Shown: in pieces, positions 10,559 to 48,499 of the stretch | How positions within the stretch are numbered: the stretch's first letter is position 1 | Layout of the letters: each line of letters opens with the position of its first letter | Notes under the pieces: generated by a model | What the model was told of the DNA's origin: nothing | Databases searched by the model: none | What the model saw: only the letters and a program-made list of their open reading frames with translations | Position numbers and translations under genes: made by a program | NCBI GenBank assembly: GCA_030998225.1 | Contig: JAPYXD010000266.1 | Location: 310,001-374,000 of the forward strand | DNA length: 64,000 bases | Origin: Diplolepis rosae | Lineage: Eukaryota > Arthropoda > Insecta > Hymenoptera > Diplolepididae | Direction: 5' to 3'

Positions 10559-11138
10559 TGAGTCAATATGCAATGTGCATACACAATCTGAATTTACTCA
10601 TATTCCAACATAATTTGCTATGCAAAATTTAGAAGGAAGTGCATTAAAACAATTTTGTTTTGGGATCCTTGCATTTTATAAGTGAATTTTTAACACAGTT
10701 ATCTATTGCAATTAATACTACTCAAACGATGTTTCATCCCAATTAAAATGAAACACGAGAAGAAAATTCTGGATTCGAATATTATTAGAATTAAGGATAT
10801 TACTTTAAACACTAATAAAATTTCGCAGAAAAATTATTTTATGATCATCCTGTTCAACGGGATTTCAAGAATATCAGCCAGTTCACTTATCCATAAAATT
10901 GACATATTATTACAAATTATTGCCATCTTACTGATTATTCAATAAACTTAATTTTAAATCGCGGAAGTGTAAAATTAAAAGTAGACATGCATGTCATAAT
11001 ACTTATATCTTGAACAACTATGAAAGAAATTAAAAGTTGAAAAGTTTCTGGTTAATTATTTGAATAAATAATTTATAGACATATTAGTTATAAATATTAA
11101 ATGTTATAAATAATAAAACAAGTTTTTCTGTGGAAAAA
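10559..11138. other. AT-rich spacer
   Basis: No supported feature. The short plus-strand frame at 10,706-10,945 is Ile/Lys/Asn-rich, as expected by chance in AT-rich DNA. Confidence 0.4.
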
Positions 11139-12120
11139 GGAACGCTTCCACTTCCCTGGGTATGAAGCCCAGGACCTTTCGATTGCCGGTCGAATGCTCT
11201 ATCATCTGAGCTACGGAGGTTCCACAAAACTTTTCTCACAGAATCTATTTACACCAATTTGGCCACGGATATATCATGAACTATATACAAATTTTGCCAA
11301 ATCATTTCGGTCGATTATGTCGATAATTAGAAGAGTGTATCACTCACCATGATAAACGAACTCTACCATAACGATCTTATCAACCTGTGATTTATTGTTA
11401 ACGCCATTTAAGACCAGATGGAATTTTCAATATATATTTGAACAATTCTTTCTGTGAAAAAAGGAACGCTTCCACTCCGCTGGGTATCAAGCCCAGGACC
11501 TTTCGATTGCCGGTCGAATGCTCTATCATCTGAGCTACGGAGGTTCCACAAAACTTTTCTCACAATCGAAAGGTCCTGGGCTTGATACCCAGCGGAGTGG
11601 AAGCGTTCCTTTTTTCACAGAAAGAATTGTTAAAATATATATTGAAAATTCCATCTGGTCTTAAATGACGTTAACTCTAAATCACAGGTTGATAAGGTCG
11701 TTATGGTAGAGTTCCTTTATCATGGTGAGTGATACACTCTTCTAATTATCGACATAATTGACCGAAATGATTTGGAAAAATGTGTATATAGTTCATGAAA
11801 TATCCGTGGCCAAATTGGCGTAAATAGATTCTGTCAGAAAAGTTTTGTGGAACCTCCGTAGCTCAGATGATAGAGCATTCGACCGGCAATCGAAAGGTCC
11901 TGGGCTTGATACCCAGCGGAGTGGAAGCGTTCCTTTTTCCACAGAAAAAATTGTTCAAATATATATTCAAAATTCCATCTGGTCTTAAATGACGTTAACT
12001 CTAAGTCACAGGTTGATAAGGTCGATATGGTAGAGTTCGTTTATCATGGTGAGTGATACACTCTTCTAATTATCGACATAATCGACCGAAATGATTTGGA
12101 AAAATTTGTAAATAATGAAA
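11139..12120. repeat. 324-bp repeat carrying a tRNA-like unit, tandem and inverted copies
   Basis: Complete tRNA-like units lie on the minus strand at 11,139-11,223 and 11,463-11,547 (spacing 324) and on the plus strand at 11,849-11,933. A half unit lies on the plus strand at 11,563-11,609. Each unit has TAGCTCAGATGATAGAG (A-box and D-arm), a perfect TTCGA/TCGAA anticodon stem around loop CCGGCAA, and GGGCTCGATACCC-like or GGGCTTGATACCC-like T-arm and B-box. Acceptor pairing is only partial (about five of seven) and position 33 is C, so it is not a standard tRNA. The minus unit at 11,463 and the half unit form a hairpin with 47-base arms. Between units is a conserved 240-base sequence. Confidence 0.8.
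11849..11933 (+). other. tRNA-like unit (anticodon position GGC), not a canonical tRNA
   Basis: This is the best plus-strand copy of the tRNA-like module. The D-arm GCTC/GAGC, the anticodon stem and the CTGGG/CCCAG T-stem all pair, and both internal RNA polymerase III box sequences are present. The anticodon position reads GGC, nominally alanine, but the usual T at position 33 is C and the ends of the acceptor stem do not pair. Because it recurs inside a repeated unit, it is better treated as a SINE-like or satellite-borne tRNA relic than as a tRNA gene. Confidence 0.45.
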
Positions 12121-15261: not shown

Positions 15262-15583
15262 CTAGTATTCATCATAATTCTCGTCCATTGCACTTGATAT
15301 TTCGTGACTAGTTCCGGCCATTTTGATTTTCTCGATCTTGTGTAGTAACAGCGGGTTATATTCAAGCAATTTTTTCTGTGAAAAAAGAAGCGCTTTCACT
15401 CCTCTGGGTATCGAGCCCAGGACCTTTCGATTGCCGGTCGAATGCTCTATCATCTGAGCTACGTAGGTTCCACAAAACTTTTCTCACAGAATCTATTTAC
15501 GCCAATTTGGCCACAGACATATCATGAACTATATACAAATTTTTCCAAATCACTTCAGTCAATTATATCGATAATTAGAAGAG
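15262..15583 (-). repeat. Left half of a tRNA-like repeat copy, split by the retrovirus
   Basis: A minus-strand tRNA-like unit at about 15,386-15,471 is followed by the same spacer seen at 11.2 kb, up to CGATAATTAGAAGAG. At that point the retroviral LTR begins. The uninterrupted copy at about 11,320-11,350 reads on through AGAAGAGTGTATCACTC, so the pre-insertion site can be seen in the same window. The rest of this copy continues at 28,876. Confidence 0.8.
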
Positions 15584-17761
15584 TGTAACGTCCTGCGTCC
15601 GTCTTTTGCTTTTTATTATTATCATTTATTTTTATTAATTCCTGTAATAAGTAAAATTATAATATCTCATTTTATATTTCTCCGAAGTCTTACTCATAAA
15701 AATGTAAATATATTAAACGCAATCTCTTCTCTAAAGATTGTATAAATTCAAAAAGCTTTTTAGAAAATGTGCAGCTGCGTAAATACAAAGATATGAACTT
15801 TCTTAGCAATCCGTAAAAGTAATAAAACTTGCACTTTGAAACTTTGACCAAAAGATACAGCCCACAATCGTATTCCTTTTAGATATTTCTGTTTGCTATC
15901 CTCTAATAAATAAATGCATAGAACTGCATAGAGCCATAGCATTATATAGCTTAGCGATTAGCCATTTCCGGAAATATCGTAAATAGCTTAGGCTAATGGT
16001 CAAAAGGGCCCGCGCTTGTACCACGCCCAAGTAAATACAAACAAAGCACATTGTATTTACTGCGCTTAGAAAATAGAATAGGCCATATATATAATAGATA
16101 ATAAAAATTCTCAATTAATAAGAATGTTAAAATATTAAGAATTTAGTTTTAAAATAATATTATTTATTTTTATATTATTTCAGTATACTATGAATAAAAA
16201 ATAAAAATGAACTATTATATTAGTTAATAATAGGAACAGTAATTCTAATCTAATTTTTATTTGAAACAATAGTTCAAACCTATTTGATTGTATGTAAAAA
16301 CCAATAGCAATTCATCGAAGATTTTAATAATTAGGAATCTACCTTATCAACGAATGAATTTATGAGAATTCAATTCTGAAGTTAAAATACTAATTAAAAT
16401 TTACTAAATGATATTCTTACACCCTTTTATTCAATTCTAGAAAAGTTAAAGTATTAGTTTACATGATATGTAGTTTAATTTATACACAACATATTTCAAC
16501 AGTAAATTTTTAAACATTACTATTTTACCTTCACAAAAATATATATTTCCAATCTTCATAAACATATTTTTAAGTTCGTAAATTCCAAAAACTAAAAACT
16601 TATTTGCAAAAGATTTAATTTAATTTTCAAATAACGTCAGAATACAAATGAGCATTAGCTAAATATTAGAAAAATTAACAATTTAAGTTAATTGAAATAC
16701 TGTTATTAAAGATTTGCAATAATGAAATGTTCTGTTTTACCGACAAAATTTCATATTCGAATATGTATTTTATAAATAACTTTACATATTTTTTAAAAAG
16801 GAACAAACTCAGCTTCGAATATGTAAATCTTTACACTTATTTTTACAAATAAGAAGTTTATATAAAAATGAAAAATCACAAACTTTCAGAATTACTTTTT
16901 ATATTTTATCGAATAAATTCACAAAAGGAAACTAATATTAAATTTACCCTTTTAAATGAATAATTTTGTATATTTAAAACCACATATTCGATGTTTAGTT
17001 TTAATCTTATGATGTTTATGTTTATTCATGAAACTAATTACAGAATAAAAATTAATCGTATGTATTAATGATTCTTTTGAATTTTGAAAAGAAGAATAGT
17101 CAGTCTAATGTAAATTAACGGGTTTTTAAGTTAAAATTAGACATAAATGAATTATATTGTAATTTAACTTAACGAAATCTGTAAACATAATTATTTAAAT
17201 AATTAATTTGTAACACATTTTATTTAAGAATATACAAATGTCGCCATCTTTTGGAAGGTGACTGAACTTGGAGAAAACTTGGTACGGCCCACAAGGCCCG
17301 GAAAACTTGCAACGCCCCTAGATTTTTACACTAAGGGAAGTCTGGGCGTAACTAGACTTGCCTAACTAGGCCAATAGAAAGCCAGGACAGCTACCCCCAG
17401 ACTTTTCCTAAATTTGAAATATCGCGAGGGAAGCGGGGTGCTGCACATAAAACTAACTGCAGACAAAATTTTCATCAGTTCTTCTCCGGCATTAAAATCT
17501 TTAAAAAATATTCCTTCTGCAACTACTTCGTGGTCCATGAAAATCTTTTCAAGTTATTTTCATGATTTCATAAAGTAAAATTTAAAACATAATACGAAAT
17601 AAACGAATTTTTCAAATAAAACTCCCTCGTCGGTTGGAGTTATTTCTCAACGAATTTAATAACCAATCATCACGAAGCTAAGTTTTCTCCTGATCCAGTC
17701 ATCTACCAAGGATTAATAACCAGAACTTTAAACAACACTAATAAAAAGTAAGTTTAAAATT
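15584..17761 (+). repeat. 5' LTR, lacking its 3' end
   Basis: It matches the 3' LTR from its TGTAACGTCC start to GTAAGTTTAAAATT. The following 399 bases of the 3' LTR (28,477-28,875), including the terminal GACGTCACA, are absent here, and no primer-binding site can be found after it. Because reverse transcription rebuilds both LTRs from the same template, this loss should postdate integration, or be an assembly error. AATAAAAAGTAAGT near the end of the homologous part also makes a good 5' splice site. Confidence 0.85.
17748..17754 (+). promoter_or_regulatory. Candidate splice donor for a subgenomic env RNA
   Basis: AAAA/GTAAGT fits the 5' splice consensus and lies upstream of gag. A matching acceptor (TTTCATTTTCAG) sits directly before the envelope start at 24,555. 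Gypsy-type retroviruses of insects express env from a spliced RNA, so this pairing is plausible but untested. Confidence 0.45.
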
Positions 17762-18260
17762 TTTCAAAGTGATCAAATGAATCCTTATTATAAAACAAAA
17801 TTTCTATTGACCAAATGAATCTAAATTTCAAAGTTTTCGAAATCTCAAAATCTTCATTAGGATTATAAAAATCCTAAATTTATAAATTTTTAATGGTTCA
17901 TAAGAATCCTGATTTTAAACAAATTTATATGGATCAGAAGTATCCAAATTTCAATTTTTATATATTTCTAAATTTTCAATAGGATTATTAAAAAAATCCT
18001 ATATTTCTAAAATTTTTAAAGGGATCACAAGTATCCTGATTTTTAAAACAAAATTTTATTGGATCACAGGAATCCAAAATTCTAAATTTTCTATATTTTA
18101 AAATTTTTAATAGGACTGTAAAAATCCAAAATCTATAAACTTTTAAAGGGATCACAAGAGTTCAAATGTTAAATTTTTTCTAAATTTTCAAATTTTTAAT
18201 AGGATTCTAAAAATCCTAAGTTTCAAACGTTTCGAAAAGATCACGAGAATTCTAATATAA
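17762..18260 (+). repeat. Leader array of about twelve short imperfect palindromes
   Basis: Between the truncated 5' LTR and gag, two kinds of short inverted motif recur every 35-55 bases. One is of the type GGATCACAAGTATCC (17,931; 18,022; 18,060 and variants). The other is of the type AGGATTATAAAAATCCT (17,860; 17,982; 18,201 and variants). The stems stay paired while the middle bases vary. A role in RNA packaging or translation is possible but is inference only. Confidence 0.65.
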
Positions 18261-18288
18261 ATTAGCGAAATTTTAAATAAAGCTACGT

Positions 18289-19957
18289 ATGTCGGACAAA
18301 AGAATTACTCGAACACAGGCATCTAAAGATTTAAATCTCCAAAAGGAAGTTGACGAATTTAACCCCTTTACTCCAAGAAAAGAGTTACCACGTGGTGAAG
18401 AGGAACATTCTTTAAATCTTTCAACATCCTCAAGTAAGGATACAGAACCCTTGAATGATACTAGGGAATCAATTCAGGAAAATTATTCTTTTGAAAACCC
18501 TTTCGATATTTCAGTACTATCAAACAATAGTACTAAAACATTAGTAGACTTAAGGGAATCTCATTTAAACTATTCTTTAGAGAAAAGCCCCAAAATTGAA
18601 AGCAAGATGAGCATGTCAGAAAAGTCAGGTTCCGGGAGACCGAGTTCTTCTGAGCAACCTAATCAGAATGTAAATGCTAACCAGCAACCGGTTACAATCC
18701 AGGTTGTTACTTTACGGGACGCACTAATGGTAGTACCCGATTTTAACGGTAGAAATATTCTTTTAGCACAATTTATAGAAGGTTGTAATGAAGCTAAGTG
18801 CATGATAGAACCCGAATCAGAAATTAACTTAGTAAAATTAATCAGAAGCAAAATAACAGGTGAAGCCCGTCAAGCTATTTCTGGTCAAGTATTTTTAAAC
18901 ATCGATGAGCTTTAAACTTTCCTTAAAAATATATATACCCCAGCTAGGACTGACTATTCCTCAATTACTAGGAGAGCTAAGACAGGAATTTCAAAGAGAT
19001 CACGAAAACGTAATTACTTATGCTAACAGAATCAGAGATATTGGAACTAGGATTTTGGAGGTTAGGAGTTTAGAAAATCAAGGTTTTATCGACCCAAATT
19101 TCCGCGCGTCAATCGAAAACACATTGGTTGATTCTTTTAAAAGGGGACTTAAATTCGAACTGGAGCAACGATTGGAAAACGAGGAAGTGGAAGATGTCAA
19201 CAACTTAATAAAAAATGCGATCACCATCGAGCGAAAATTGGAAGCTCAAAAAAATCTTAGAAGGACAACAGTAAGTAACCGAAATGAAGACAATCATTTA
19301 AGAACTCGACGTATGTTCCCATGTCGAATTTGTAATCGAGAAGGACACGAAGCAGGGCAATGCAGAAATAGACTCTGGTGTACCAACTGTAAAATAAATG
19401 GGCATAATTTAGAAAAATGTTTTAAGGCTCAGAAAACTTTAAAATATGAACCACTTAATCAAATTAAGTGCCAACTATGCAATAAGCAAGGGCACACGGC
19501 TACCCAATGTTTTGGCAACCAGGAATGCCAAATATGTAAAAAACAGGGACATACTGCTAAAGATTGTTTCCTAAATAAACTATCAACTAGGGTAACATGT
19601 CAACTGTGTAATAAACAAGGACACAGTGCAGACAAATGCTTTTCATTAAGCAAACCAATAAGACCGTTACCAACTGAAATAAATAAGGTCTTAACCTGCC
19701 AAATCTGCAATCGATCTGGACATGAAGCAGCGAGATGTAGAATGATGTCCACCCAAAAGGAATGCAAATATTGCAAAACACCAGGGCATACGATCGAGGA
19801 CTGCTACAAAAGAAAATATAATGAAGAAAGAAGGACGGGAAACGGATGGAACCTTCCGGGACCGAGTGCAACCGAGAAGGAGAACCAAAATCAACAGCGC
19901 TCGAATCAAAGAACATCAATAGAACAATTCCAAAGCGAATTATTACCATCGATATAG
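18289..19957 (+). pseudogene. gag: Gag polyprotein with seven CCHC zinc knuckles, broken
   Basis: Gag forms the capsid and binds genomic RNA in the cytoplasm. The N-terminal part (18,289-18,915) is polar and Ser/Glu-rich and then enters the capsid-like region. A stop lies at 18,913-18,915 and the frame changes again within the next 50 bases; the second open part runs to 19,957. It contains QLLGELRQEFQRDHENV, a block typical of gypsy capsids. The C-terminal third holds seven C-x2-C-x4-H-x4-C knuckles, from CRICNREGHEAGQC to CKYCKTPGHTIEDC. One or two is usual for this lineage. The tail overlaps the protease frame, in the -1 relation common between gag and pol. I see no classical slippery heptamer in the overlap. 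Confidence 0.85.
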
Positions 19958-20451
19958 AAGAAGATTCAACGAAAATTCCATTTATATCCTTCAAACATCC
20001 AGTAATGAATGACACGATTAAACTAATGCTTGATACTGGATCGGAGTTAAATATTCTAAAAATCAAAAAAATCAGCCCTCTTCAAATAGTCAATCTCGAG
20101 GAAACAGTATTTCTCAAAGGAATAGATTCTGTTATAATCCCATCAATCGGTACAATAGAACATACACTAATGGGTCATACAGTAAAATTCCACATAGTAC
20201 CCGATGAATTTTTTATACCTTTTGACGGAATCCTAGGTTCCGAATATTATACTAATGCAAAAGCAAAAATTAACTTCCTTACGAATCATCTTATTGTAGG
20301 AGAAAAGTCCATTAAATTTCAACAAAATCATGAGTTTCCAACCGAAACAAGAATAAGTGGAATAACAAGATGGACCAATAATTTAAAGAAGAATAACCTG
20401 CATTTCATTAAGTATTCAACCCTCCTTCAAATAGTCTGGGACAATTTATGA
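19846..20451 (+). pseudogene. pol: First retropepsin (aspartic protease) domain of pol
   Basis: The frame overlaps the end of gag by about 110 bases. The protease core starts near 19,985 and shows the catalytic motif LMLDTGSELN (DTG at 20,032-20,040), a central TVFLKGI strand, the HTVKFHIV strand, and the flap/dimer-side DGILGSEY near 20,224-20,247. That is the full order of elements in a retropepsin of gypsy-like elements. Such enzymes act as homodimers to cleave Gag-Pol. A second, clearly related domain begins about 70 codons later. The frame ends with a TGA overlapping the ATG of the next open frame. Confidence 0.85.
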
Positions 20452-22280
20452 TTGATACAGGGTCAGAAGCAAATATTATCAAGAATTATTTATTACCAAC
20501 TGAAATAGATATGGATAATTTTAAAACTGTTTTTCTTAAAGGGGTAGGTGATAAATTAAATCGCACTATGGGAACAATAAAACTTGCAGTATACGGACAT
20601 ACATCCACATTTCATGTAGTATCTGATGATTTCGATATTCCATGTGAAGGAATTTTAGGTGCCACATATCTAACAGAAACTAATGCAGTAATTGACTACG
20701 AAAACGAATCAATAGAAACGAAAGATAAAATCTCTAAATTTACATTAGGAAACGAATTTTTACCGGATAAAAATCGACAATTTGCTATAGAGGAAAATAA
20801 AAATTGTATTCCCAACATACCAGAAGAAATTAAAAGGACAGATTCATCATGGAGCCTGGATGCAATTGCGTCATCAAGTCATTCAATCTTACTTCAAGAA
20901 TACGAACAAGAAACCCCTATAAACGACTCTGAAGAATTAGATAGCCCTATCTATCCAGAACATGAAGAACTTACATGGTGCACAAAAGATAAATTTCAGG
21001 AAACTTTACTTGAAATTTCATCTGAACTTAATCTAGATTCTTATTCCGAATTGGAAATTTATGAAACTTATGAAACTTTTCAAAGAAATTTCTCCGAAGA
21101 GGAAATTTATGGAAACTTCTCCATAGGAAACAAAGATGCAGTCTCAGAAGAGGATTTACTAATTAATAAGTTGAGATTAAATGATTTAAATGAAAATGAA
21201 AGGGATTATGTAATTAAATTTGTAACTTCAAACAAAGATCGGTTTTTTAGAGAAGGACAGAAACTAGAAGCAGCAAGTACAGTCATGCACCGAATTCCAA
21301 CCATAGATGATGTTCCAATCAATGTAAAACACTATAAATTTCCAATTTCACTAAAAGAAGAAGTAGAAAGGCAAGTTCAGGAAATGTTAGACTCTGGAAT
21401 AATAAAACCATCAAGTTCACCGTACAATTCACCTCTATGGATTGTACCCAAAAAAATGGACTCTTCAGGAAAACAAAAATGGCGACTTGTTTCAGATTTT
21501 CGCCAAATAAATGACAAAACGATCAGTGATGGATACCATTTACTAGATATTACACAAATTATCGACCAAGTAGGAGGACATAAATATTACACAACCCTTG
21601 ATTTAGCAAAAGGATTTCAACAAATTTTAATGGATCCACGAGATGCACATGAAACTGCATTTAGCACTCCCCACGGTCATTATGAGTATGTAAGAATGAC
21701 TTTTGGCTTAAAAAATGCCCCTCCAACTTTTCAAAGATTTATTGACGAAACATTTAAAAATCTCCAAGGAAAAATTTTATTCACATTCATCGATGACATA
21801 GTAGTATTTGCCGATTCTTTAGAAGAGCATGATGAAAAAATGAAATTAATTATGGATAGATTACGGAAATCTAATCTTCAACTAAATCCCGATAAATGCG
21901 AATTTTTACGAGACAAGGTATGTTACCTAGGACACATGTTAAATATAAAAGGAGTTAGCCCTGACCCAAGAAAATTAGAAGCAGTTAGAGAATTTCCAAA
22001 ACCTAAAAATGTCAAAAATATACACCAATTTTTGGGCTTGGCTGGATTTTATCGCCGTTTTATTCAGAACTTTGCTCAAATTGCAAAACCACTAAGCAAA
22101 TTACTTCAAAAAGATATCGCATTTAAATGGACAGAAAAAGAAGAACAGGCTTTTTCTACACTAAAAGAACACCTTTGCAACCCCCCAATTTGCAGTACCA
22201 TAATTTTTCAAAACCTTTCAATATCACAACTGATGCATCTGGATATGCTATTGGTGGAATTCTTTCTCAGGGAGAAATAG
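20448..22280 (+). pseudogene. pol: Second retropepsin domain plus reverse transcriptase and RNase H start
   Basis: A second protease domain opens this frame: FMIDTGSEAN (DTG at 20,454-20,462), TVFLKGV, TSTFHVV and EGILGATY, in the same order and spacing as the first. The start ATG falls inside the active-site strand; homology extends about 12 codons further upstream in the same frame before a stop near 20,410. An acidic linker follows. The reverse transcriptase spans roughly residues 270-480, with WIVPKK, YYTTLDLAKGFQQI (first catalytic Asp), GLKNAPPTFQRF and FTFIDDIVVF (Asp pair in the FIDD form). The connection domain FLGLAGFYRRFI follows. The frame is lost near 22,195 at the start of RNase H. 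Confidence 0.9.
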
Positions 22281-23815
22281 GCAAAGACCTCCCTATAGCA
22301 TATACCTCAAGAGTTTTACGTGGTCCCGAGCTTTCTTATGAAGTCTATGAAAAAGAAGCTCTGGCTATGATTCACGCAGTTAAAATCTTTCGTTCGTATA
22401 TCTATGGAAAGAAAATTAAAATAATTACGGATCATCAACCTTTAGTATGGTTCAAAACAGCAGAATTAAATACTAGAGTACAAAAATGGCGTTTTAAACT
22501 CTCTGAATTCGATTATGAAGTCATTTATAAGCCTGGAAAATTAAACCTTAACGCAGATGCACTTTCAACAAATCCTACGGAGCAAGTGCCAACGCAATCG
22601 TGCAACATCATCACCAGGAACCAGAAGAAAAAGGAAGAAGCAAACGATGTATCAGCTGATGAAAAACGTGAGTCAAAAAGAATAGAAGGAAAACCAACCC
22701 TTAATTATGCTGAAAGTGAGTCAAGTTACTCAACAAATCCAAAAGCAAAAACGGCGTTACCGCCGGACAAAATTTCTTCAAAATCAGTATCATCAAAAAT
22801 AGAAGATGATATTGAAGACACAGTCAAAATGACTGAATCAAACTTCGAGGAACAAGTCCTCATTCAACAAAAAGAAAATTCAAATGTCAGTAGTACATCA
22901 AGCTTCGATTCTTCAAATTCTAACCAAGAAACTAGGGAATTCGACCCCAATCTAAAATCTCAAATTATTGAAACTAAAGAAATAATACAATTTCGAAAGG
23001 ACAATTTAATATACTTTGTCACAAGTACCGGAAATCCCTGCGATAAAGGTGCAAAGGATTTAATTGAATTTAACAAAATTGAAACAAATCAAGCGTTAAA
23101 GGAAATAAGTGCTACCCACACAAATAAAGGGAGCAAAACAAACCATTTCGCTCTTTGCATAAGAGGCGAAAAACAAGAATCTATTTCAAATATTAGAGAA
23201 AACTTGTATATAGTATTAAAGCAGTTAAGAAATTTAATAGATAAACTTAATGTAAAGATAGTAAGTGTAGCACGAAGCGAACATGTAGAAAATTTACCAT
23301 GGTCCGAAGTGTTGTTAGCTTTTAAAACAGTATTTAAGAATGTAAATATTAAAATTCTTATTTGTAAGGGAACATTGAAATTTGTTCCACTAGATAAACG
23401 AAATGAAATATTTGAAGAATTACACTGTTCACCAATTGGAGGTCATAGAGGAGTCTCCAAAACTTACAACAGAATAAAACAAAACTACTACTGGGAGAAT
23501 CTGAAGGAAGATATTCAGCGAAGGATCCAGCAATGTTTAAATTGTCAACTAAAAAAATTAGTACGATTAAAAACAAAACAGCCAATGGTGATTACAGATA
23601 CACCAGGAACAGTGTTCGATAAAATAGCCCTAGATGTGGTAGGACCCCTACCCAAAACGAAAAATGGATTCGAATACATTCTCACAATGCAAGATCAACT
23701 TTCTAAATTCTGTCTAGCAGTCCCATTAAAAGATACTCTTGCCACTACAATAGCTGTTAAGAAATTTATTTGTTTATTCGGAGCCCCTAGGGTTGTAATC
23801 ACCGATCAAGGTTAA
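22127..23815 (+). pseudogene. pol: RNase H, macro-like domain and integrase N-terminal part of pol
   Basis: After the frame change the RNase H reads FNITTDASGYAIGG, YEKEALAMIHA and ITDHQPLVWF, the expected acidic positions, ending with the KPGKLNLNADALS tether. A low-complexity Ser/Lys/Glu linker follows. Then comes a globular region (22,980-23,385) resembling a macro domain. The integrase starts with its zinc-binding HHCC region (LHCSPIGGHRGVSKT ... CLNC) and the catalytic core LDVVGPLPKTKNG and VVITDQG, which supply the first two Asp. A stop at 23,813-23,815 interrupts the core; the same frame reopens immediately after. Confidence 0.88.
22980..23385 (+). other. Macro-like (OARD1/Poa1-type) domain between RNase H and integrase
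   Basis: The first part, NLIYFVTSTGNPCDKGAK, resembles the strand and glycine loop of small macro domains that bind ADP-ribose. The second part, with RENLYIVLKQLRNL, then VSVARSEHVENLPWSEV, then VFKNVNIKILIC, follows the helix, loop and final strand order of OARD1-type domains, where the central loop carries an R-x-G-x-G-L-D pattern; here that loop has lost its glycines. A related stretch occurs in the separate gypsy element at 31.3-31.7 kb. Known macro domains bind or remove ADP-ribose on proteins. Whether this one binds a ligand is unknown, and the degenerate loop argues against full activity. Confidence 0.55.
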
Positions 23816-23833
23816 AATTTTCTAAGCAAACTT

Positions 23834-24475
23834 ATGCAACGAATTTCAAAAAGATTTAAAATTAAAAAAATTAGAACTACTGCTTTTCATCCTCAGTCTA
23901 ATGGCTCATTGGAAAGGTCACACGATGCTTTAGGTGAATTTTTAAAACAATATACCAATGCAGATCAAGAATGGGATGAATGGTTGGAAATCGCGATTCT
24001 AAATTTTAACATGTGTGTATCGGAAAGTACTAAACATACGCCTTACGAAGTAGTATTTGGAAAATTGGCTAGATTACCCTCAGGTGACCCCTTAAGGGAA
24101 ACAGATATATTGCCTTCTTATAAAGGATATATTATAGACTTAGTAACTAGACTAAACGGAATAAGAACTTTAGTTTATGAAAATTTAGTTGGATCCAAGA
24201 ATCGTTCAAAAAAATACTATGACAGAACGATAAATCCGCGTAATTTTAGAATAGGAGACTATGTTTTTCTTTTAAAAGGCCCTAAGCCAAATAAATTTGG
24301 TGATCGCTATTCAGGACCACACAAAATTTTGGAGATTATTAATAAAAACAATATTAAAATTCAATACTATCAAGGTAACAAAATTGTTCATGCAAACAGA
24401 CTCAGAATTTCACACATAAATCACACGGTGAAACCAAAGAAAATACAAAATCGCAGAGACACTAGTAATGATTAA
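23834..24475 (+). pseudogene. pol: Integrase C-terminal part of pol
   Basis: This continues the integrase core after the stop at 23,813, in the same frame. TAFHPQSNGSLERSHDALGEF contributes the third catalytic residue (Glu), about 35 residues after the second Asp once the stop is counted as one position. The remaining part has the GPY/F-type chromatin-proximal module (GDYVFLLKGPKPNKF, RYSGPHKIL) found in gypsy integrases. It ends 80 bases before the envelope start. The enzyme inserts viral DNA into host chromosomes; this copy cannot be translated as one piece. Confidence 0.88.
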
Positions 24476-24542
24476 TTAATAATCATCACTAGTAATGCAA
24501 AGATGGGAAGATGTAAACCCTGAAATGTAATACTAATACTTA

Positions 24543-24554
24543 TTTCATTTTCAG
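24543..24554 (+). promoter_or_regulatory. Candidate splice acceptor before env
   Basis: TTTCATTTTCAG lies directly against the ATG of the envelope frame. The position fits a spliced env message, with a donor such as the one at 17,750. Confidence 0.55.
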
Positions 24555-25974
24555 ATGTTTTGCTTATTATTTTGTGTAATAATAAGTAATGCAAATGCTT
24601 TTATTGGATACGATTGTGGGTCCCGAAACTTAAACGTTACAACGCTTTCACTATTAGAAGTAGGAGAATGTGAGCTACCAGAAACAAATGTCGATGTATC
24701 CGAAAAATATATACAGCTCCTGCAAATCAACGAGTATAGTGAAACGAAAATAATTCAACTATTTGCTTACTTTCTGATGGTCATTGCATTGACCAGGAGG
24801 GAGGTTATACCTTTTGGAATACAGTACCGGTTGATAATTGTAAATTTCAGCAATATAGCATCCTTTATGAAGGACTAGCAAATAAAGTAATAGATCACGA
24901 TTTTGATAACAAACAAATTATGTACTCTCTTTCCACCCAAGATATAACGTTCGCCCTGACAGCAAAAAGCAAGGAAACCGTTTGCGGTTATATAGTTATA
25001 AAAACCGAACATCCTAAATTGTTAATATTTGAAACAACTAAAGGTGAAAGCTTTGCAAATTATAAAAAAATCTCTGTAACTAATTTAGATATTTTTGCAT
25101 ATGTTAACTCCAAATTTGTATACTTCGAAAAACATTTACGCTCTCAGATGAAACAGTTGTATAAGGACGTACTCACCCAAAAATGTAAATTAGAGAAGCA
25201 AACTTTGAAAAAATCACTTTCAATAGCAACAAAATCACCGGACGAGTTCGCCTACGACTTGATGAAGGCACCGGGGTACATGGCAGTTGTTGCAGGTGAA
25301 GTAGTACACATAATCAAATGTGTACCAGTGGAAATAAAAATAGAGCATGGAGATCCTGTTATGGAGAACTTCAGGTAACTAGAAACAACAAAACGTACTT
25401 CCTTACACCAAGAACTCACATCCTCAAGACACAAGGAACACAGATACCTTGCAACAGAATGTTACCTTCTCAATACTATGTTGGTAACAAATGGTACAAA
25501 ATACTACCGCTACCTACCACAGCAGAAAAACCTACAATTATTAAGCCGATGACAGCACCTACGTGGGAATACGTCAATCCATCAGAACTGGCGACCAACG
25601 GAATATACACAGAAGAAGAATTGGACCAAATTAGGGAACGAATTATGTTTCTAGTAGAACGACCAGCAGTTCTCAATGATTTAGCTAGAGAAATGCGAGG
25701 ACATCCCTTGGGCGACAATGAAGGAAGTCTTTTAAAGCTACTTAATGAAGACGTGATTACTACAATAGCCAGCAACACATGGAACAAACTCTGGACACAT
25801 TTCATCACTTTCGGGACTGCAAGTGCCGGAATAATAGCTATTTTTATGATTCTCCATCTGATTAAAGCTATAATAGATATCATCATTCAAGGTTATACAC
25901 TGCATGCCGTCTATGGTTGGTCCATACACCTTTTAGGAGCTCTGTGGAGTTCAGTTACTTACCTACTCATATAG
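24555..25974 (+). pseudogene. env: Envelope glycoprotein, chuvirus-G-like, three broken frames
   Basis: The N-terminus is a typical signal peptide (MFCLLFCVIISNANA) followed by FIGYDCGSRNLNVTTLSLL. The frame changes near 24,760, where a stretch also seems deleted, and again near 25,360. The middle part (to 25,378) contains VCGYIVIKTEHPKLLIFET and GYMAVVAGEVVHIIKC. The last part (25,318-25,974) ends with a long hydrophobic membrane segment (FGTASAGIIAIFMILHLI) and LHAVYGWSIHLLGALWSSV. A stop at 25,972 precedes a further 45 open codons of charged, tail-like sequence. The pattern resembles glycoproteins shared between chuviruses and insect retroelements, not the F-type envelope of errantiviruses. 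The family assignment is from memory of motif patterns and is moderate. Confidence 0.6.
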
Positions 25975-26267: not shown

Positions 26268-26281
26268 TTTTACGGTGGGGG
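26268..26281 (+). promoter_or_regulatory. Purine-rich tract before the 3' LTR
   Basis: ACGGTGGGGG immediately precedes the TG of the 3' LTR. It is the expected location for the RNase H-resistant primer of plus-strand synthesis, though short and interrupted by one T. Confidence 0.5.
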
Positions 26282-28875
26282 TGTAACGTCCTGCGTCCGT
26301 CTTTTGCTTTTTATTATTATCATTTATTTTTATTAATTCCTGTAATAAGTAAAATTATAATATCTCATTTTATATTTCTCCGAAGTCTTACTCATAAAAA
26401 TGTAAATATTTTAAACGCAATCTCTTCTCTAAAGTTTGTATAAATTCAAAAACCTTTTTAGAAAATGTGCAGCTGCGTAAATACAAAGATATGAACTTTC
26501 TTAGCAATCCGTAAAAGTAATAAAACTTGCACTTTGAAACTTTGACCAAAAGATACAGCCCACAATCGTATTCCTTTTAGATATTTCTGTTTGCTATCCT
26601 CTAATAGATAAATGCATAGAACTGCATAGAGCTATAGCATTATATAGCTTAGCGATTAGCCATTTCCGGAAATATCGTAAATAGCTTAGGCTAATGGTCA
26701 AAAGGGCCCGCGCTTGTACCACGCCCAAGTAAATACAAACAAAGCACATTGTATTTACTGGGCTTAGAAAATAGAATAGGCCATATATATAATAGATAAT
26801 AAAAATTCTCAATTAATAAGAATGTTAAAATATTAAGAATTTAGTTTTAAAATAATATTATTTATTTTTATATTATTTCAGTATGCTATGAATAAAAAAT
26901 AAAAATGAACTATTATATTAGTTAATAATAGGAACAGTAATTCTAATCTAATTTTTATTTGAAACAATAGTTCAAACCTATTTGATTGTAAGTAAAAACC
27001 AATAGCAATTCATCGAAGATTTTAATAATTAGGAATCTACCTTATCAGCGAATGAATTTATGAGAATTCAATTCTGAAGTTAAAATACTAATTAAAATTT
27101 ACTAAATAATATTCTTACACCCTTTTATTCAATTCTAGAAAAGTTAAAGTATTAGTTTACATGATATGTAGTTTAATTTATACACAACATATTTCAACAG
27201 TAAATTTTTAAACATTACTATTTTACCTTCACAAAAATATATATTTCCAATCTTCATAAACATATTTTTAAGTTCGTAAATTCCAAAAACTAAAAACTTA
27301 TTTGCAAAAGATTTAATTTAATTTTCAAATAACGTCAGAATACAAATGAGCATTAGCTAAATATTAGAAAAATTAACAATTTAAGTTAATTGAAATACTG
27401 TTATTAAAGATTTGCAATAATGAAATGTTCTGTTTTACCGACAAAATTTCATATTCGAATATGTATTTTATAAATAACTTTACATATTTTTTAAAAAGGA
27501 ACAAACTCAGCTTCGAATATGTAAATCTTTACACTTATTTTTACAAATAAGAAGTTTATATAAAAATGAAAAATCACAAACTTTCAGAATTACTTTTTAT
27601 ATTTTATCGAATAAATTCACAAAAGGAAACTTATATTAAATTTACCCTTTTAAATGAATAATTTTGTATATTTAAAACCACATATTCGATGTTTAGTTTT
27701 AATTTTATGATGTTTATGTTTATTCATGAAACTAATTACAGAATAAAAATTAATCGTATGTATTAATGATTCTTTTGAATTTTGAAAAGAAGAATAGTCA
27801 GTCTAATGTAAATTAACGGGTTTTTAAGTTAAAATTAGACATAAATGAATTATATTGTAATCTAACTTTTCAATTAATTAAACTTAACGAAATCTGTAAA
27901 CATAATTATTTAAATAATTAATTTGTAACACATTTTATTTAAGAATATACAAATGTCGCCATCTTTTGGAAGGTGACTGAACTTGGAGAAAATTTGGTAC
28001 GGCCCACAAGGCCCGGAAAACTTGCAACGCCCCTAGATTTTCACACTAAGGGAAGTCTGGGCGTAACTAGGCTTGCCTAACTAGGCCAATAGAAAGCCAG
28101 GACAGCTACCCCCAGACTTTTCCTAAATTTGAAATATCGCGAGGGAAGCGGGGTGCTGCACATAAAACTAACTGCAGACAAAATTTTCATCAGTTCTTCT
28201 CCGGCATTAAAATCATTAAAAAATATTCCTTCTGCTACTACTTCGTGGTCCATGAAAATCTTTTCAAGTTATTTTCATGATTTTATAAAGTAAAATTTAA
28301 AACATAATACGAAATAAACGAATTTTTCAAATAAAACTCCCTCGTCGGTTGGAGTTATTTCTCAACGAATTTAATAACCAATCATCACAAAGCTAAGTTT
28401 TCTCCTGATCCAGTCATCTACCAAGGATTAATAACCAGGACTTTAAACAACACTAATAAAAAGTAAGTTTAAAATTACAATTGCTGTGTCTTTTTCTAAA
28501 ATACTGTCTACCCTGTCTCTTTAAATATAATTTTATTCATATTCATACAAATGTTTGAGTGCTGGTAGCCACCCCAGTACTAGCATTTGTATAATTTTGT
28601 TTACCTATCGTTCCAAATCCCCGAATCTAAGACAAGTGGCGTGCTCCCTTTTACGGGAATAGTACGACTTGTCTAAAATTCACATGTCTTTTCCCATTTT
28701 TCATCTTATTTGATATTATTTTGGTTTGAGAAAAAATTATTGTGAACGGTAGTCCTGGGTTATTGGAATTAATTTTTCCAGACCCGAAATTACCAAGATT
28801 ATTATATTATCTTCAAGAATATAATAATAAAATTATATAATTAAATCTTTCTCTTGTGTGTCTTCAGACGTCACA
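26282..28875 (+). repeat. 3' LTR, full length (2,594 bp)
   Basis: It runs from TGTAACGTCC to GACGTCACA and is followed by the AGAG duplication. It matches the 5' LTR across 26,282-28,476 apart from scattered substitutions and one insertion of about 17 bases near 27,866. The last 399 bases have no counterpart in the 5' LTR. No ORF longer than about 75 codons is supported inside it. Confidence 0.9.
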
Positions 28876-29660
28876 AGAGTGTATCATTCACCATGATAAC
28901 CGAACTCTTCCATATCGACCCTATCCCCCTGAGATTTAGTATCAACGTCATTTAAGACCAGATGGAATTTTCAATATATATTTAAACAATTTTTTCTGTG
29001 AAAAAAGGAACGCTTCCACTCCGCTGGGTATCGAGCCCAGGACCTTCCGATTGCCGGTCGAATGCTCTATCATCTGAGCTACGGAGGTTCCAAAAAATTT
29101 TTCTCACAATCGAAAGGTCCTGGGCTCGATACCCAGCGGAGTGGAAGCGTTCCTTTTTCCACAGAAAGAATTGTTCAAATATATATTCAAAATTCCATCT
29201 GGTCTTAAATGACGTTAATTCTAAATTTCAGGTTGATAGGGTCGATATGGTAGAGTTCTTTTATCATGGTGAATGATACACTCTTCTAATTATCGACATA
29301 ATTGACCGAAATGATTTGGAAAAATGTGTATATAGTTCATGATATATCCGTGGCCAAATTGGCGTAAAGAGATTCTGTGAGAAATGTTTTGTGGAACCTC
29401 CGTAGCTCAGATGATAGAGCATTCGACCGGCAATCGAAAGGTCCTGGGCTCGATACTCAGCGGAGTGGAAGCGTTCCCTTTTTCACAGAAAAAATTGTTT
29501 GAATATATATTCAAAATTCCATCCGGTCTTAAATGACGTTAATTCTAAATCTCAGGTTGATAGGGTTGATATGGTAGAGTTCGGTTATAATGTTGAATGA
29601 TACAGTCTTCTAAGTATCGACATAATCGACTGAAATGATTTAGGAAAATTTGTATATAGT
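28876..29660. repeat. Right half of the split tRNA-like repeat with inverted copies
   Basis: After the AGAG duplication the spacer resumes (GTGTATCATTCACCATGATA). It then carries a minus tRNA-like unit at 29,007-29,091, a plus half unit at 29,107-29,153 and a complete plus unit at 29,393-29,477. The minus unit and half unit form the same hairpin arrangement as at 11,463-11,609, with the break at the same CAATCG position. The repeated occurrence of the identical junction means it was copied as a unit. Confidence 0.85.
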
Positions 29661-31283: not shown

Positions 31284-31673
31284 CTAAGGATCGTACTTCG
31301 CGCACGATCGTCGCTCCGAAAAATCCCACGATGGACTTGCTTCAAGTTCCTTAATTATGAGAGAGTATATGTTAAAATGTCTACGAGGAGTGATTGGCAT
31401 TTCTCCTATTTTTGGTTTCCTATCCTTTAGGTGCTGGAGGTCAACTTCTCCCAAGTCCACAAGTAGGCGGCTTACGGGGGTGACAAACTCACAGTCAGCC
31501 GAGAGAAAATGTACATAGTTTCCTTTCAAATAAGTGAGATTCTCTCTGCTGCTATTTAGTCTGATCTGCATGTTTTTACTACTGTGCGTCTCAGTTCCAC
31601 TGGGCATTTCACAGGCCTTAGGCAGTGCTCGAGGGATGCCAGTGATTGACGGTCGCGAATGGTCAGACGGCAA
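31284..31673 (-). pseudogene. pol: Linker and macro-like domain of the second gypsy element
   Basis: The first 50 residues are shared with the 8.7-kb fragment. From about residue 55 the sequence NYVHFLSADCEFVTPVSRLL and then HFNIYSLIIKE resembles the first half of an OARD1-type macro domain, matching the arrangement in the retrovirus at 22,980-23,385. The glycine-rich ligand loop is not conserved (EFVTPVS). The second half is missing and the frame soon runs into unrelated sequence. Confidence 0.5.
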
Positions 31674-32043
31674 ATTTCTCTTGTTCCAACTAATCTTTCT
31701 CCTGATCTTCTTCCGTCGTTCTATCTTCGCTGTCGCTGGGTGGCGGACTCACCATTTGAATGGGTTCTGTTTCCTGCTTTCTGCCATAGCGCTTGATTTC
31801 TCCTGGTCTTCTGAGAAGAATTCGGTTGAATCCTCTGGTGCTTTCGCAGGTGCACTTTTGGGTATTGTTGATGATTGGTATGCTGCAGGTGTCATGTTCG
31901 AGCTCGGGAGCACACTTTTTCTTTTTTAGAGAATTGGGGGTGATTCAGGATCCCTTTCCGTTTCTTCCAAACTACTGTCCTCCATATAGTCAGGTCCATT
32001 CTGAGCTCGTTGAGTCTCTACCCGTCGCCGAATCAGATGCTTA

Positions 32044-32565
32044 CTAATAGAGCTTCTGTAGGTGAAGTAGGTGGTTTAGAGGGTCTAATCCTAGAAGTGG
32101 ATCCTTTTTAGTTTGAACCGCAGGTCTATTTTTGAATTCGGCCTCTGAAGTTTTTGAAACGAGTTTTGAGATATTTTCCTCTCGTTTGTTAGCTTGCCTA
32201 GTTAGCATTGGCAGTAACCTGGCAGGTTGTTTTCCTTCTGTCTCTTCTTCGTCAGAATTTTCTACGATTAGATTTCTTGATGGGGCACCGGCGTTAGTAT
32301 TTAATTTACCTGGTTTGTATTTAAATTCGTATTCACGGTCTCTTAATTTTAGTCTCCAACAAATTAGTCTTTGGCCTGAATCTTTTACAAAATCTATCCG
32401 CATGAGGGATTCGTGATCGCTCATAAGGGTGAATTTTCTTCCATGAATGTAGGGTCGGAATTGCTTTACCGCGTAAAGGACCGCAAGGCATTCCTTCTCC
32501 GTTGTGGAATAATTTAATTTAGGTCCAGCTAACACTCTAGACATATATGCTACAGCGAGATCCAT
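32044..32565 (-). pseudogene. pol: Gypsy RNase H and linker
   Basis: The frame contains VAYMSRVLAGPKLNYSTTEK, the ECLAVLYAVKQFRPY helix with its conserved Glu, and the SDHESL motif with Asp, followed by YKPGKLNTNAGAPSRN. The first Asp-containing strand lies upstream in another frame (TDASDYAIGAALS-like, near 32,600). An acidic, Lys-rich linker of about 80 residues follows and leads toward the macro-like region. Confidence 0.82.
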
Positions 32566-32718
32566 TTTATCATTTTCTTGACTCAGGGCGGCTCCTATTG
32601 CATAATCTGAGGCATCAGTGGTTACTGTGAAGGGTTTTTCAAATTCAGGGTATTGTAATATTGGGCATTCACACAGAGCTTGTTGTAAGTCCTTGAAGCT
32701 TTTCTCTTCTTACAGTCT

Positions 32719-33710
32719 TTATTTAAATAAGGCTTCTTTTTTTAATAAATTTGATAAGAGTTTTTCTCTCGCCGAAAAGTCCTTGATGAATCTTCTATAG
32801 TATCCAGCTAGCCCTAGGAATATTTTTATGTTCCTAGGTGTTTTCGGTCTGGGGAAATTTTGAACAGCTTCGATCTTTTTAGGATTCGGCTTTACCCCCT
32901 TGTCACTAATTATGTAACCTAAGTACGCTATTTCTTTGAAAAGAAATTCGCACTTTTCCGGTTGTAGTGAAAGATTGGCTTCTGGTAGTTGTTTGAGAAG
33001 ACGTCTTAACTTTCTACCGTGATTTTCTAAGTCTTTAGCATATATCACTATATCGTCTAGATAGACAAATAGTTCAGTACCCTGTAGTCCTAGTAGAACT
33101 TGGTCCATTAGGCGTTGAAATGTAGCGGGTGAATGTTTCAATCCCATGGGCATTCTAATGTACTCATAGTGCCCGTTCAATGATGAAAATGCTGTCTTGT
33201 CTATCTTTTGGGTCCAATTCTATTTGATGGAAACCACTGGCTAAACCGAAAATGGAAAAGTATTATGCAGTACTCAAATGGTGTAAAATATGTGAAATAT
33301 TAGGCAATGGATATGCATCGATCACCAATTGTTTTCTCATTTAAGAGCGGAAAATCAATTACTATCCTCCATTTATTTTTTCCTGTGGCGTCTATAATCT
33401 TAGGTATAATCAGTAAGGTTGAATTATAAGGAGATTTTGAATTTTGAATCGCTCCTTCTATCTTCATTTTATGTATTACTCTCTTGACTTCTTCCCTTTG
33501 AGAGGCTGAAAATCGGTATGGTCTGGTGTTAACAGGTACGTCGTCTAAGGTATGAATTTTGTATTGTACTAAATGAGTAGGGGTTAGAGGTTCTCCTGGT
33601 AGGTAAAAATTATCAGGAAATTCCCTTACTATCTCCAGTACATGATCTTTTTCCTCTGGGTTCGAATGATCTGAGCGAAAGTTTTTTAGAACTTCATCAG
33701 CCTTATTCAC
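32719..33710 (-). pseudogene. pol: Gypsy reverse transcriptase, split and mutated
   Basis: Two frames are joined across a break near 33,180-33,300. The first holds the RT start (HTLDDVPVNTRPYRFS and KSPYNSTLLIIPK). In the break the motif around the first catalytic residue reads SIFGLASGFHQIELD, so the usual Asp is lost. The second frame has YEYIRMPMGLKHSPATFQRL, the Asp pair in LFVYLDDIVIYA, and the connection motif FLGLAGYYRRFI. It is non-functional. Confidence 0.85.
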
Positions 33711-33935
33711 TGTGGGTGAAAAATCTTCGTCTGCAGAATCCTCATCAAAATCCTCTCCTGGAAATTTGTGATATTTAAAGGAGATGATTTATTGTGGGTG
33801 TAGTTCTATTTGGAGGTCATTGTCTGTGGTGTTGATAGCGAATGCATGACAAATTCCATTCAAGTTGGTTACGGTTGCTTCACATATTAGCACGCCTTCT
33901 GTGGTTTTTATTAAGGGTAGGTACCCTTCCTTTAT

Positions 33936-34196
33936 TTATGAGTTTATTACTGATATTTCCACCTTTTCTTGTAGAAGATATTCTCGTCCTAGTATTCCAT
34001 CTGTGCTTATTGGAAAGTCAGAATGCACTACATGAAAGGTAATTTTAGATTTCATTAATTCAATGTTTACTGTGCCTATGATCGAAATTCTACTTTGTGT
34101 TATTCCAGTAATTTCTATTGCTTTGTTCTGATCGGCCAGTAGGTCTTCATCTAAAGCATTTAACTTAATGAAATTTATGTCCGCACCTGTTTCCAC
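33936..34196 (-). pseudogene. pol: Gypsy protease with Glu replacing the catalytic Asp
   Basis: The active-site motif reads ETGADINFI where retropepsins have DTGA. The remaining structure (ITGITQSRISIIGTVNIEL, FHVVHSDFPI, DGILGREYLL) follows the family order. Without the Asp the protease should be inactive. The listed start is simply the first Met at the active-site strand; true sequence extends further upstream in a disrupted frame. Confidence 0.75.
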
Positions 34197-34319
34197 TAAA
34201 AACCTTGACTTTGATCGTGAAAGTTCATTTGATGAAAGTTCATTTGATGAAAGTTCTACTACTGGGGATTCTCGACTGAGTTTGCTGCAGAAGATTTTTC
34301 TTGTTTCTTGAGAAATCTC

Positions 34320-35010
34320 ACGTCGGTCCTGTTATGTTGATATAAATAAGTACTTACATGAATTATAAAAACGAGAGAACACATGAAGATTTAGTCTTAT
34401 AATTAAAATTGTCATTATAATTAAAGCCTCAAAGATTGAGGGCTTCAATAATTTAAAATTACATTGTAATATGGTGTGTACAATCCGGCGAAGCAACGCA
34501 AACTGTAGGATAGAGAGACGAAGATACGATAAATTGAATCAAATTCACCAATGAAAATCGTGCTAAAACTTGAGAACGCAAACTTGGAAACCATATGTTA
34601 AATAATACTATGTTAAATTTGATTAATATTCATAATTTCAGTCTTTAAATTTATTGAAATATTAATATTTTTATTGATAAAAATTGATTCAATAATTTTT
34701 CTTTTATACTTATTGTATTCTCAAGCTAAAATTTTAATATTATTAAAGTCAAAGAAATGATTGTAATCCCAAGAATGTCGAGATGAGCCTGTATTCAAAT
34801 TTTCAAGTCTACAATCTCTTGTATGCCCATAAATTCTATTTTTTAAATTCTGCCAGTTTCACCAATGTAGACTGTATCGCATCCAGTGCATTTTATAAGG
34901 TAAACTACGTTGGATAGATTTTCCATTCTATCAGAATCTTTATTGTTGTTTAATAATTTTCCCAAAGTATGGTTATTATTGAAATAGACTGAAACATTTC
35001 GACCTTTTTG
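34320..35010 (-). mobile_element. Penelope-like element 3' end with GIY-YIG endonuclease
   Basis: On the minus strand NNNHTLGKLL is followed by SNVVYLIKC and CDTVYIGETGR, the hallmark of the GIY-YIG nuclease that follows the reverse transcriptase in Penelope-like elements. After a frame change, SSRHSWDYNHFFDFNNIKIL and KIIESIFINKNI represent the rest of the domain. About 500 bases of this piece (34,320-34,815) recur in inverse orientation at 48,500-48,985, so both mark the family's 3' end. In the family the enzyme nicks target DNA for insertion. Confidence 0.8.
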
Positions 35011-46563: not shown

Positions 46564-47046
46564 TATTGTTATGTTACCCCTGGATTTAGCTTTAGATTGC
46601 ATAGAGGAAAAATTAAATTTACATACAACAAGGATTTCTAAAAATGAGATTTTCATTTATGTTAGAACAGTGTTTAATAATACAGTTTTTTCATTTAATA
46701 ATAAATTTTATAAATAGACGTCAGGTTGTCGAATGGGGTCTCCATTGTCACCTTTAGTATCAAATTTGGTTATGGAGGATGTAGAAAAACGAGCGTTATT
46801 AAAATTATCTTTTAAACCTATTCTCTGTAAACGTTATGTGGATGATATACTTACAATTGTCCAGACAGATAAAATTGCAGAGTTTTTTGGTGATTTTAAC
46901 AGTATTGAGCAATCCATTAAATTTACATTTCAAAAGGAAGAAAACAATACCTTAAACTTCTTAGAATTGGAGATAATAAAAAATAGTAATGGTTCTTTAA
47001 TTAAAAACTGGTTTAAAAAACCTACATGGTCCGGTTGCTATTTAAA
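46564..47046 (+). pseudogene. Penelope RT fragment in inverse orientation
   Basis: The plus strand encodes LDLALDCIEEKLNLHTTRIS, a stop at 46,717-46,719, then MGSPLSPLVSNLVMEDVEK, the catalytic box KRYVDDILTIV and the FFGDFNSIEQSIKFTFQKEE region. These are the central RT motifs of Penelope. The copy begins almost exactly where the minus-strand copy starts, giving a head-to-head arrangement. It ends abruptly at KPTWSGCYL, where an R1-type fragment begins. Confidence 0.82.
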
Positions 47047-48499
47047 ATGACCGAGGACCTCCCTAGCCATACCCCATTTTGCGCAGACGAAGAGTGCGTG
47101 CTCTACGTTATCCACCGGGAAATCGCAGTAGCAACACGTCTCCTCGTCTCTCTTTTTAAAGCGCCTCAGGTACGCGTTAAAACAGCCATGGCCCGAGAGC
47201 GCTTGCGCCAAGTAAAAGCCGACTTCCCCGTGCTTTCTGTTTAGCCAGGTGGCGAGTTCCGGGATCAGGCGGTAGGTCCATCTCCCTGTCTGCTCACCAT
47301 GCCATCTCATCTGCCATTTCTCGACGAGTCTGCGCCTTCCATCCTTGCGGATGGCCTCCTTCGCGCGAGCGATTTCCTGCAGGTCGGCGCAGGTAAGCTC
47401 CTTGCGAAGCTGAAAGGTTTCCTGCCTTTCCTCCGCCAATAAATCTATTGGCGGGACGCTCGTCAGGACCAGCACAGCGCTCGTCGAGATAGTTCTATAT
47501 GCCGAAACTATTCTCAGCGCGACAAGTCTCTGCGCCGAGAACAGCTTCTTCTGGATAGCATGGTTTTGCAAGGCATTGGCCCAGACCGGAGCTGCATAAA
47601 GCAGCTTCGAATGGACCACGCTCGCCACCAATCTTCTTTTCGCTTCCCTGGGTCCACCAATGTTTGGCATAAGCCGGGCCAAGTTCGCTCCACATTGGAT
47701 GGCTTTGGCAGGTGCGATCTTTAGGTGTTCGCCAAAGCTAAGCCTACGATCCAGCTGCATCCCCAGGTACTTAATGCTTGTTTTCCACTCGACTTCATGC
47801 TCTCCGAAAACGATCCTCGGGTATTGGAAGGATCTCCTGTCCGTAACGAGCAAAGCCTCGGTTTTCTCAGGGGCCATTTTAAGACCTCTGCCATCCAACC
47901 AGCGCTTCGCTCGCCACAGACTTTCATTGATCTTCAGCTCTAGGATTCCGACGTCGTCAGCGGCGCACACGACAAGTGCATCATCCGCGAAGCCGACGAT
48001 GCTCGTTCCAGCGGGCAGGTCCATGCGCAGAAAGTCATCGTACATGACTTTCCAAACGAGTGGACCCACCCGCGACCCTTGAGGAGTGCCACATGTCATC
48101 TCTTCTTCAAGAGACCATTTGTCGCCCTCGTATATCATCCACCTGTCGCTCAGATAGTCATCTATCATTCGCAACAGGTAGTCTGGAACCTTTTTTCGCA
48201 TCATCGCCTCGATGCAGATGTCCCATCTTGCGGTATTGAACGCATTGCGTATGTCAATGCTAATCAACGCACAGAATCCCTTACGCTTACCAGTTCCTTT
48301 TCTTGCATTTGTGGCGATTTTAACCACAGCTTGGATGGCGTCCACAGTGGACCTGCCTTTCCTGAATCCGAACTGGTTTTCTGAGAGCCCATTCTCCCCG
48401 ACCAAGAGAGCCTGAAGCCGTTGTAGAATCAACTCCTCCAGAAGCTTCCCGATCGTATCCAATAGACATATTGGTCTATACGATGAGGGATAAAATATT
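47047..48499 (-). pseudogene. R1-type non-LTR reverse transcriptase with C-terminal zinc motif
   Basis: A 474-residue uninterrupted frame (48,462-47,038) holds the RT from SYRPICLLDTIGK upstream of its first Met through ENQFGFRKGRSTVDAI, SIDIRNAFNTARW, GTPQGSRVGP and the catalytic VGFADDALVV. The C-terminal part ends with a C-x2-C-x8-H-x4-C motif (CCYCDFPVDNVEHALFVC), characteristic of R1-clade elements. It lacks the endonuclease, the start of the RT and the 3' UTR; both ends abut Penelope sequence. The RT copies element RNA at the target site. The open frame suggests a more recent origin than its neighbours. Confidence 0.88.

Follow-up and report, generated by a model that had tools for sequence, protein, structure and literature searches.

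A tandem pair of diverged retropepsin domains in a gypsy-type element of Diplolepis rosae, probably a natural single-chain pseudo-dimer

A 64,000-nucleotide stretch of the genome of the insect Diplolepis rosae (Hymenoptera; assembly GCA_030998225.1, contig JAPYXD010000266.1, positions 310,001 to 374,000 of the forward strand; hereafter ‘the window’) carries on its + strand a decayed copy of an env-bearing long terminal repeat (LTR) element of the Ty3/gypsy type (Metaviridae), whose pol region encodes two successive retropepsin domains, here called PR1 and PR2. Both domains are conserved in relatives of the element, and the four elements with the pair that were placed in a tree form a single clade. 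We consider it probable, at roughly two chances in three, that this tandem pair is a natural single-chain pseudo-dimeric retropepsin, as structure prediction suggests.

PR1 (about 19975..20337, + strand; catalytic DTG codons at 20032-20040) carries the motifs DTGSELN, TVFLKG, TVKFHIV and GILG in a frame open at 19825-20451. PR2 (about 20412..20756, + strand; catalytic DTG codons at 20454-20462) carries DTGSEAN, TVFLKG, TSTFHVV and GILG at the start of a frame open at 20412-22280. Both full motif series named in an original prediction, which was made from the DNA sequence alone, were thereby located. The two domains are identical at 47 of 121 positions by BLASTP (39%; E 3e-23), and at this level of identity and significance the likeness is not due to chance. 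Each domain is complete, as is evident from intact relatives: both have [IL]P[FY]I as the motif of the N-terminal strand, D[TS]G, the flap and ILG; the combination of D[TS]G[SA] with a hydrophobic-hydrophobic-Gly motif that marks a retropepsin is present in both domains of the window copy and of two relatives, P0001 and P0003. A protease profile that we built from 12 seeds and scanned over the window in six frames gives E values of 4.2e-49 for PR1 and 3.3e-45 for PR2, which are not independent evidence because both domains are among the seeds. In the Pfam check proposed in the original prediction, matches to the window copy are weak and below cut-off (PF13650, E 0.12 for PR1; PF00077, E 0.012 for PR2), but PF00077 is above cut-off on PR2 of P0001, P0003, P0005 and P0024, though not of P0002.

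These relatives come from protein searches, two of which gave 2 proteins each and a third 656; among the best 120 of the 656, which were used, the named relatives by reverse transcriptase (RT) are mostly hymenopteran (ants, wasps, bees and parasitoids). P0001 is another copy of the window family (PR1 95% and PR2 91% identical by BLASTP) and encodes the two domains in a single frame, each with its catalytic motif. The distant relative P0003 (RT 76% identical) also carries both domains in one frame, with DSG in PR1 and DTG in PR2. P0005 (RT 58% identical) shows PR1 from past the catalytic motif onward (E 4.8e-19) and then PR2, and P0024, from the wasp Trichogramma kaykai, shows a short, weak PR1 tail (E 0.056) and then PR2; the PR1 catalytic motif falls outside the gene model in both. 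P0002 has, besides PR2 and a zinc knuckle, only the end of PR1, and either it has lost the PR1 core or its gene model is faulty. The junction between the domains is read through in all five relatives that cover it (P0001, P0002, P0003, P0005 and P0024), and in the three members in which both lobes are visible, each lobe retains the catalytic Asp with its Gly. The predicted old duplication, as opposed to an assembly repeat, is borne out by the in-frame pairs of P0001 and P0003; part of PR1 also stands ahead of PR2 in P0005 and, as a weak match, in P0024. The findings that would have spoken against it, namely copies with one protease or nearly identical domains, were not encountered, and P0001, the sole other family copy found to include the region, has both domains.

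The number of protease domains was counted over 123 rows (121 fetched proteins and 2 open reading frames, ORFs, of the window), of which 70 have at least one protease match. Two protease matches are present in 4 of the 68 fetched proteins with any match. A single protease preceded by at least 100 residues is found in nine, and a single protease preceded by 65-82 residues in three (P0002, P0081 and P0114); the other 52, including P0099, have fewer than 50 residues upstream and are too short to judge, and further tandem elements may sit among them. That a tandem protease is not standard in gypsy elements, as had been predicted, agrees with the nine relatives that show one domain and with the literature, since we found no tandem or duplicated retropepsin in an LTR retroelement in open-access publications, subscription papers and preprints being mostly outside the search. 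A post-protease domain, recognized by a profile of our own, is matched in 62 of the 123 rows and in none of the seven rows of the tandem clade. Loss of this domain may have accompanied the doubling of the protease. Some rows outside the clade, such as P0085 and P0114, are also without it. Three scans confirmed no relatives in public viral contigs, and a scan of public genome contigs yielded two sphingomonad loci, 25-27% identical over part of PR2, that are probably bacterial retropepsin-like proteins.

The window also holds a second decayed gypsy-type element (31287-34331, - strand) with one protease domain, encoded by the ORF at 33939-34331, which is the only other strong match to the protease profile in the window (E 1.2e-26). 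No protease-like match lies upstream of this ORF in the element, which is a single-protease contrast within the same genome.

In a tree of 114 rows based on RT columns, the window element, P0003, P0005 and P0024 form one clade (Shimodaira-Hasegawa-like approximate likelihood ratio test, 95), and the same four-member clade appears, with support of 99/95, in a tree of 47 rows that we chose from the 114. The 11 relatives scored as having one protease (the nine with at least 100 residues upstream, P0081 and P0114) all lie outside the tandem clade in the larger tree; nine of these 11 were included in the smaller one. The sister of the clade is P0099, one of the 52 short proteins mentioned above. 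A protease tree of 55 of 66 rows, from which rows of fewer than 90 residues were dropped except for tandem ones, places the PR1s apart from the PR2s in 98% of 200 bootstrap trees (support 93/77). Because the pair is kept in relatives, and because these form one RT clade apart from the single-protease relatives, the duplication looks old and single; that it occurred once and was retained is likely from these comparisons, though not proven. So far, one named member links the tandem lineage to Hymenoptera.

An AlphaFold model of P0001, run without templates, has PR1 packed against PR2. Its best 15 matches in the PDB are two-copy chains of HIV-1 protease (198-203 residues), followed by DDI1 and pepsin-type enzymes, and the models show the retropepsin fold. 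The matches to single-chain HIV-1 protease dimers span both lobes, which lends support to the earlier suggestion that the pair could form a covalent pseudo-dimer.

Several points weigh against a single-chain pseudo-dimer that arose by one old duplication. The P0001 model is modest (mean predicted local distance difference test score 68.8, predicted template modeling score 0.51, linker near 50), its root-mean-square deviation (rmsd) to tethered dimers in Foldseek is 6.0-7.3 Å, and its packing may have been imposed by the training of AlphaFold on tethered dimers, DDI1 and pepsins. The P0001 gene model, moreover, begins at the strand before DTG, without the N-terminal strand of PR1. The model of P0003 gave RT matches throughout both structure-match lists, so packing is not addressed by it, and superposition failed for the matches over 200 columns among predicted viral proteins (rmsd at least 19 Å). 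The protease tree is weak, with support of only 93/77 and a bootstrap that has not settled; in it the PR2s of P0005 and P0024 fall outside the other PR2s, and P0048, which has the post-protease domain and whose upstream part is not visible, groups with the PR1s. PR1 of the window is 36% identical to PR1 of P0003, 39% to PR2 of P0003 and 36% to PR2 of the window, the paralogues being about as alike as the orthologues (36-39%).

Other explanations differ in what they make of the broken window copy and of the two complete domains. The copy is disrupted in gag, pol and env, as might be expected of an assembly repeat, a chimera or a chance recombinant without lasting function. However, the domains are only 39% identical and the same layout recurs in independent database entries that belong to one RT clade; such an artefact has already been refuted by P0001 and P0003. 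It is also true, as the original prediction stated, that the domains lie in different frames in this copy, with PR2 offset by -1 from PR1 just as PR1 is from gag. This offset would suit a betaretrovirus-like arrangement in which PR1 and PR2-RT are separate ORFs and a second -1 frameshift is programmed between them. We regard this arrangement as very improbable, given that no slippery heptamer of the form X XXY YYZ exists in the overlap of the two frames (20412-20451) and that the five junction-covering relatives read straight through. Because these relatives read through, the frame switch, which falls near the end of the linker (20338..20411, + strand) in the window copy only, is ascribed to decay of that copy.

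A more serious competitor, though an unlikely one, holds that the pair constitutes two serial homodimeric proteases, each lobe associating with its counterpart in a second chain, and that the two enzymes split tasks or cleavage sites between them. No solved retroviral protease is known to be other than a one-domain dimer, both domains here are complete from the N-terminal strand through D[TS]G and the flap to ILG, and the lobes have diverged to a similar degree. However, in the model of P0001 the two lobes of one chain already pair in the manner of the dimer, and pairing within one chain is likelier because the linker measures 30-40 residues. We give still less credence to the possibility that one lobe is only a helper that shapes or inhibits the other, for example as a pro-domain, so that its own catalytic residue is irrelevant. 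The clade is without the post-protease domain common in its relatives, which the extra lobe may replace, and P0002 is without most of PR1, provided that its gene model is right; but the retention of Asp and Gly in both lobes of the three members noted above argues against a helper.

We favor the single-chain pseudo-dimer, and suggest that it arose through one ancient head-to-tail duplication of the retropepsin inside pol. Intact members read PR1, a linker of ~30-40 residues and PR2 as one chain upstream of RT, and the lobes most likely pack on each other within that chain, as modeled. The active site would then be shared, each lobe supplying a catalytic Asp and a flap, and activation could proceed without the meeting of two Gag-Pol molecules. 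If no second Gag-Pol molecule is needed, protease action must be restrained in another way, perhaps by low frameshift output, slow self-cleavage or position in the precursor. For HIV-1, a tethered protease inside the polyprotein is reported to spoil particle assembly. With somewhat less assurance, we lean towards the fuller view that this is an active single-chain viral protease of two diverged lobes that is independent of Gag-Pol dimerization, is held in check otherwise, and has been kept in env-bearing gypsy elements of Hymenoptera.

The window family shares with the retropepsins of Ty3/gypsy elements and retroviruses (clan AA) the D[TS]G, flap and ILG motifs, the fold, and a position ahead of RT, RNase H and integrase. 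The retropepsins known so far have one domain and act as dimers, whereas the window family has two diverged domains in one chain, and the rule of one domain per polypeptide does not hold for P0001 and P0003. DDI1-type retroviral-like protease domains belong to cellular proteins and are dimeric with one lobe per chain, in contrast to the two lobes per chain seen here. The engineered tethered HIV-1 protease dimers (1g6l, 4ep2, 2o40 and others) that are the best structural matches of P0001 do have two lobes per chain, but they are laboratory constructs with identical or nearly identical halves, whereas the halves of the window family are natural, far diverged and joined by a longer linker. Compared with pepsin-type enzymes (A1), the lobes are much smaller, are still retropepsin-like and lie inside a polyprotein. 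The pepsin-like features evident in the sequence are two lobes and two Asp residues, packing being predicted by the model, and no pepsin-family Pfam match was obtained up to E 1 with nine ORFs of the window and five relatives. If the model holds, the tandem protease would work like a small pepsin without being an A1 enzyme.

The element that carries the pair is bounded by a 5′ LTR (15583..17761) and a 3′ LTR (26281..28476), both on the + strand, as are all features of the element, and with approximate boundaries; the two match each other at 98.3% identity across 2196 columns. No clear target-site duplication flanks the element. The leader between LTR and gag contains imperfect direct repeats of ~86 bases (17834-18261). 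The gag gene (18277..19957; PF00098, E 1.2e-6) is spread in this copy over two frames that overlap (18277-18915 and 18899-19957) and includes seven CCHC zinc knuckles at ~19322-19804 (matches to the pattern CX2CX4HX4C), an unusually large number of consecutive knuckles for gag. A candidate -1 slippery heptamer, GGGAAAC (19837..19843), lies in the gag register and leads into the PR1 frame. This candidate is weak, as 19% of shuffles of the gag/PR1 overlap also contain a heptamer of this kind, and no stable RNA fold is found 3′ of it (no better than shuffles, z -0.80). Beyond PR2, a spacer (20757..21443) without the post-protease domain of many single-protease relatives leads to RT (RVT_1, 21444..21938; PF00078, E 8.2e-34), RNase H (22202..22510; PF17917, E 9.8e-34), whose frame differs from that of RT in this copy, and integrase (23384..24475; zinc-binding domain PF17921, E 1.3e-19; PF00665, E 0.00022, below cut-off), whose C-terminal part lies in a further ORF. 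The order protease, RT, RNase H, integrase and the Ty3-like RT (the RT profile of the family matches Ty3 RT with E 2e-122) are those of Ty3/gypsy elements. The pol region of the window copy is broken into several frames.

The env-like gene (24537..25974) is split into three ORFs that match PF24664 (E 3.6e-17, 2.7e-62 and 1.3e-77), by which Pfam places them in the Monjiviricetes (chuvirus-like) fusion glycoprotein family. An assignment to Errantivirus was rejected, as the env ORFs match PF24664 and not the baculovirus F-type envelope. The element at this point (24537-25974) joins a gypsy-type pol to a chuvirus-like fusion glycoprotein as env. Anakin, a mosquito BEL/Pao element (Dezordi et al., 2020, cited in PMC10084718 and PMC12440569), is likewise an LTR element with a chuvirus-type fusion glycoprotein, but its pol is of the BEL/Pao type and not gypsy, and the available passages on it mention no tandem protease. 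PMC10084718 reports that no clear capture of a chuvirus-like glycoprotein by Gypsy elements was found, and PMC13172572 mentions that type III fusion glycoproteins are carried by gypsy elements in mosquitoes.

Elsewhere in the window, a repeat of ~230 bases occurs at 15357-15587, 11110-11339, 11733-11963 and 29277-29507, with copies 91-93% identical; one copy stops right at the 5′ LTR and the others continue further. Additional mobile-element ORFs at 47041-48525, 49696-50274 and 58414-58884, named by eye from their translations, represent a non-LTR-type RT (- strand) and two mariner/Tc-like transposase pieces.

As far as the open-access literature searched shows, what is new is the natural fusion of two diverged retropepsins within an LTR element; the element type (gypsy) and the lobe type (retropepsin) were already known. 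According to PMC2642776, pepsins are assumed to descend from a dimeric, retroviral-like ancestor that was duplicated. Living intermediates toward pepsin are not at hand, and here plain retropepsin lobes, ~36-39% identical, share one chain. Because both lobes are still retropepsins and single-domain relatives are available for comparison, the passage from a homodimer to a heterodimer within one chain becomes open to experiment. Activation of retroviral proteases is tied to dimerization of Gag-linked domains, according to PMC10361719, and, if our reading is true, this control of maturation would be missing from the single-chain enzyme. The element would then encode a retropepsin that has passed through gene duplication and fusion, the steps by which pepsin has long been proposed to have arisen.
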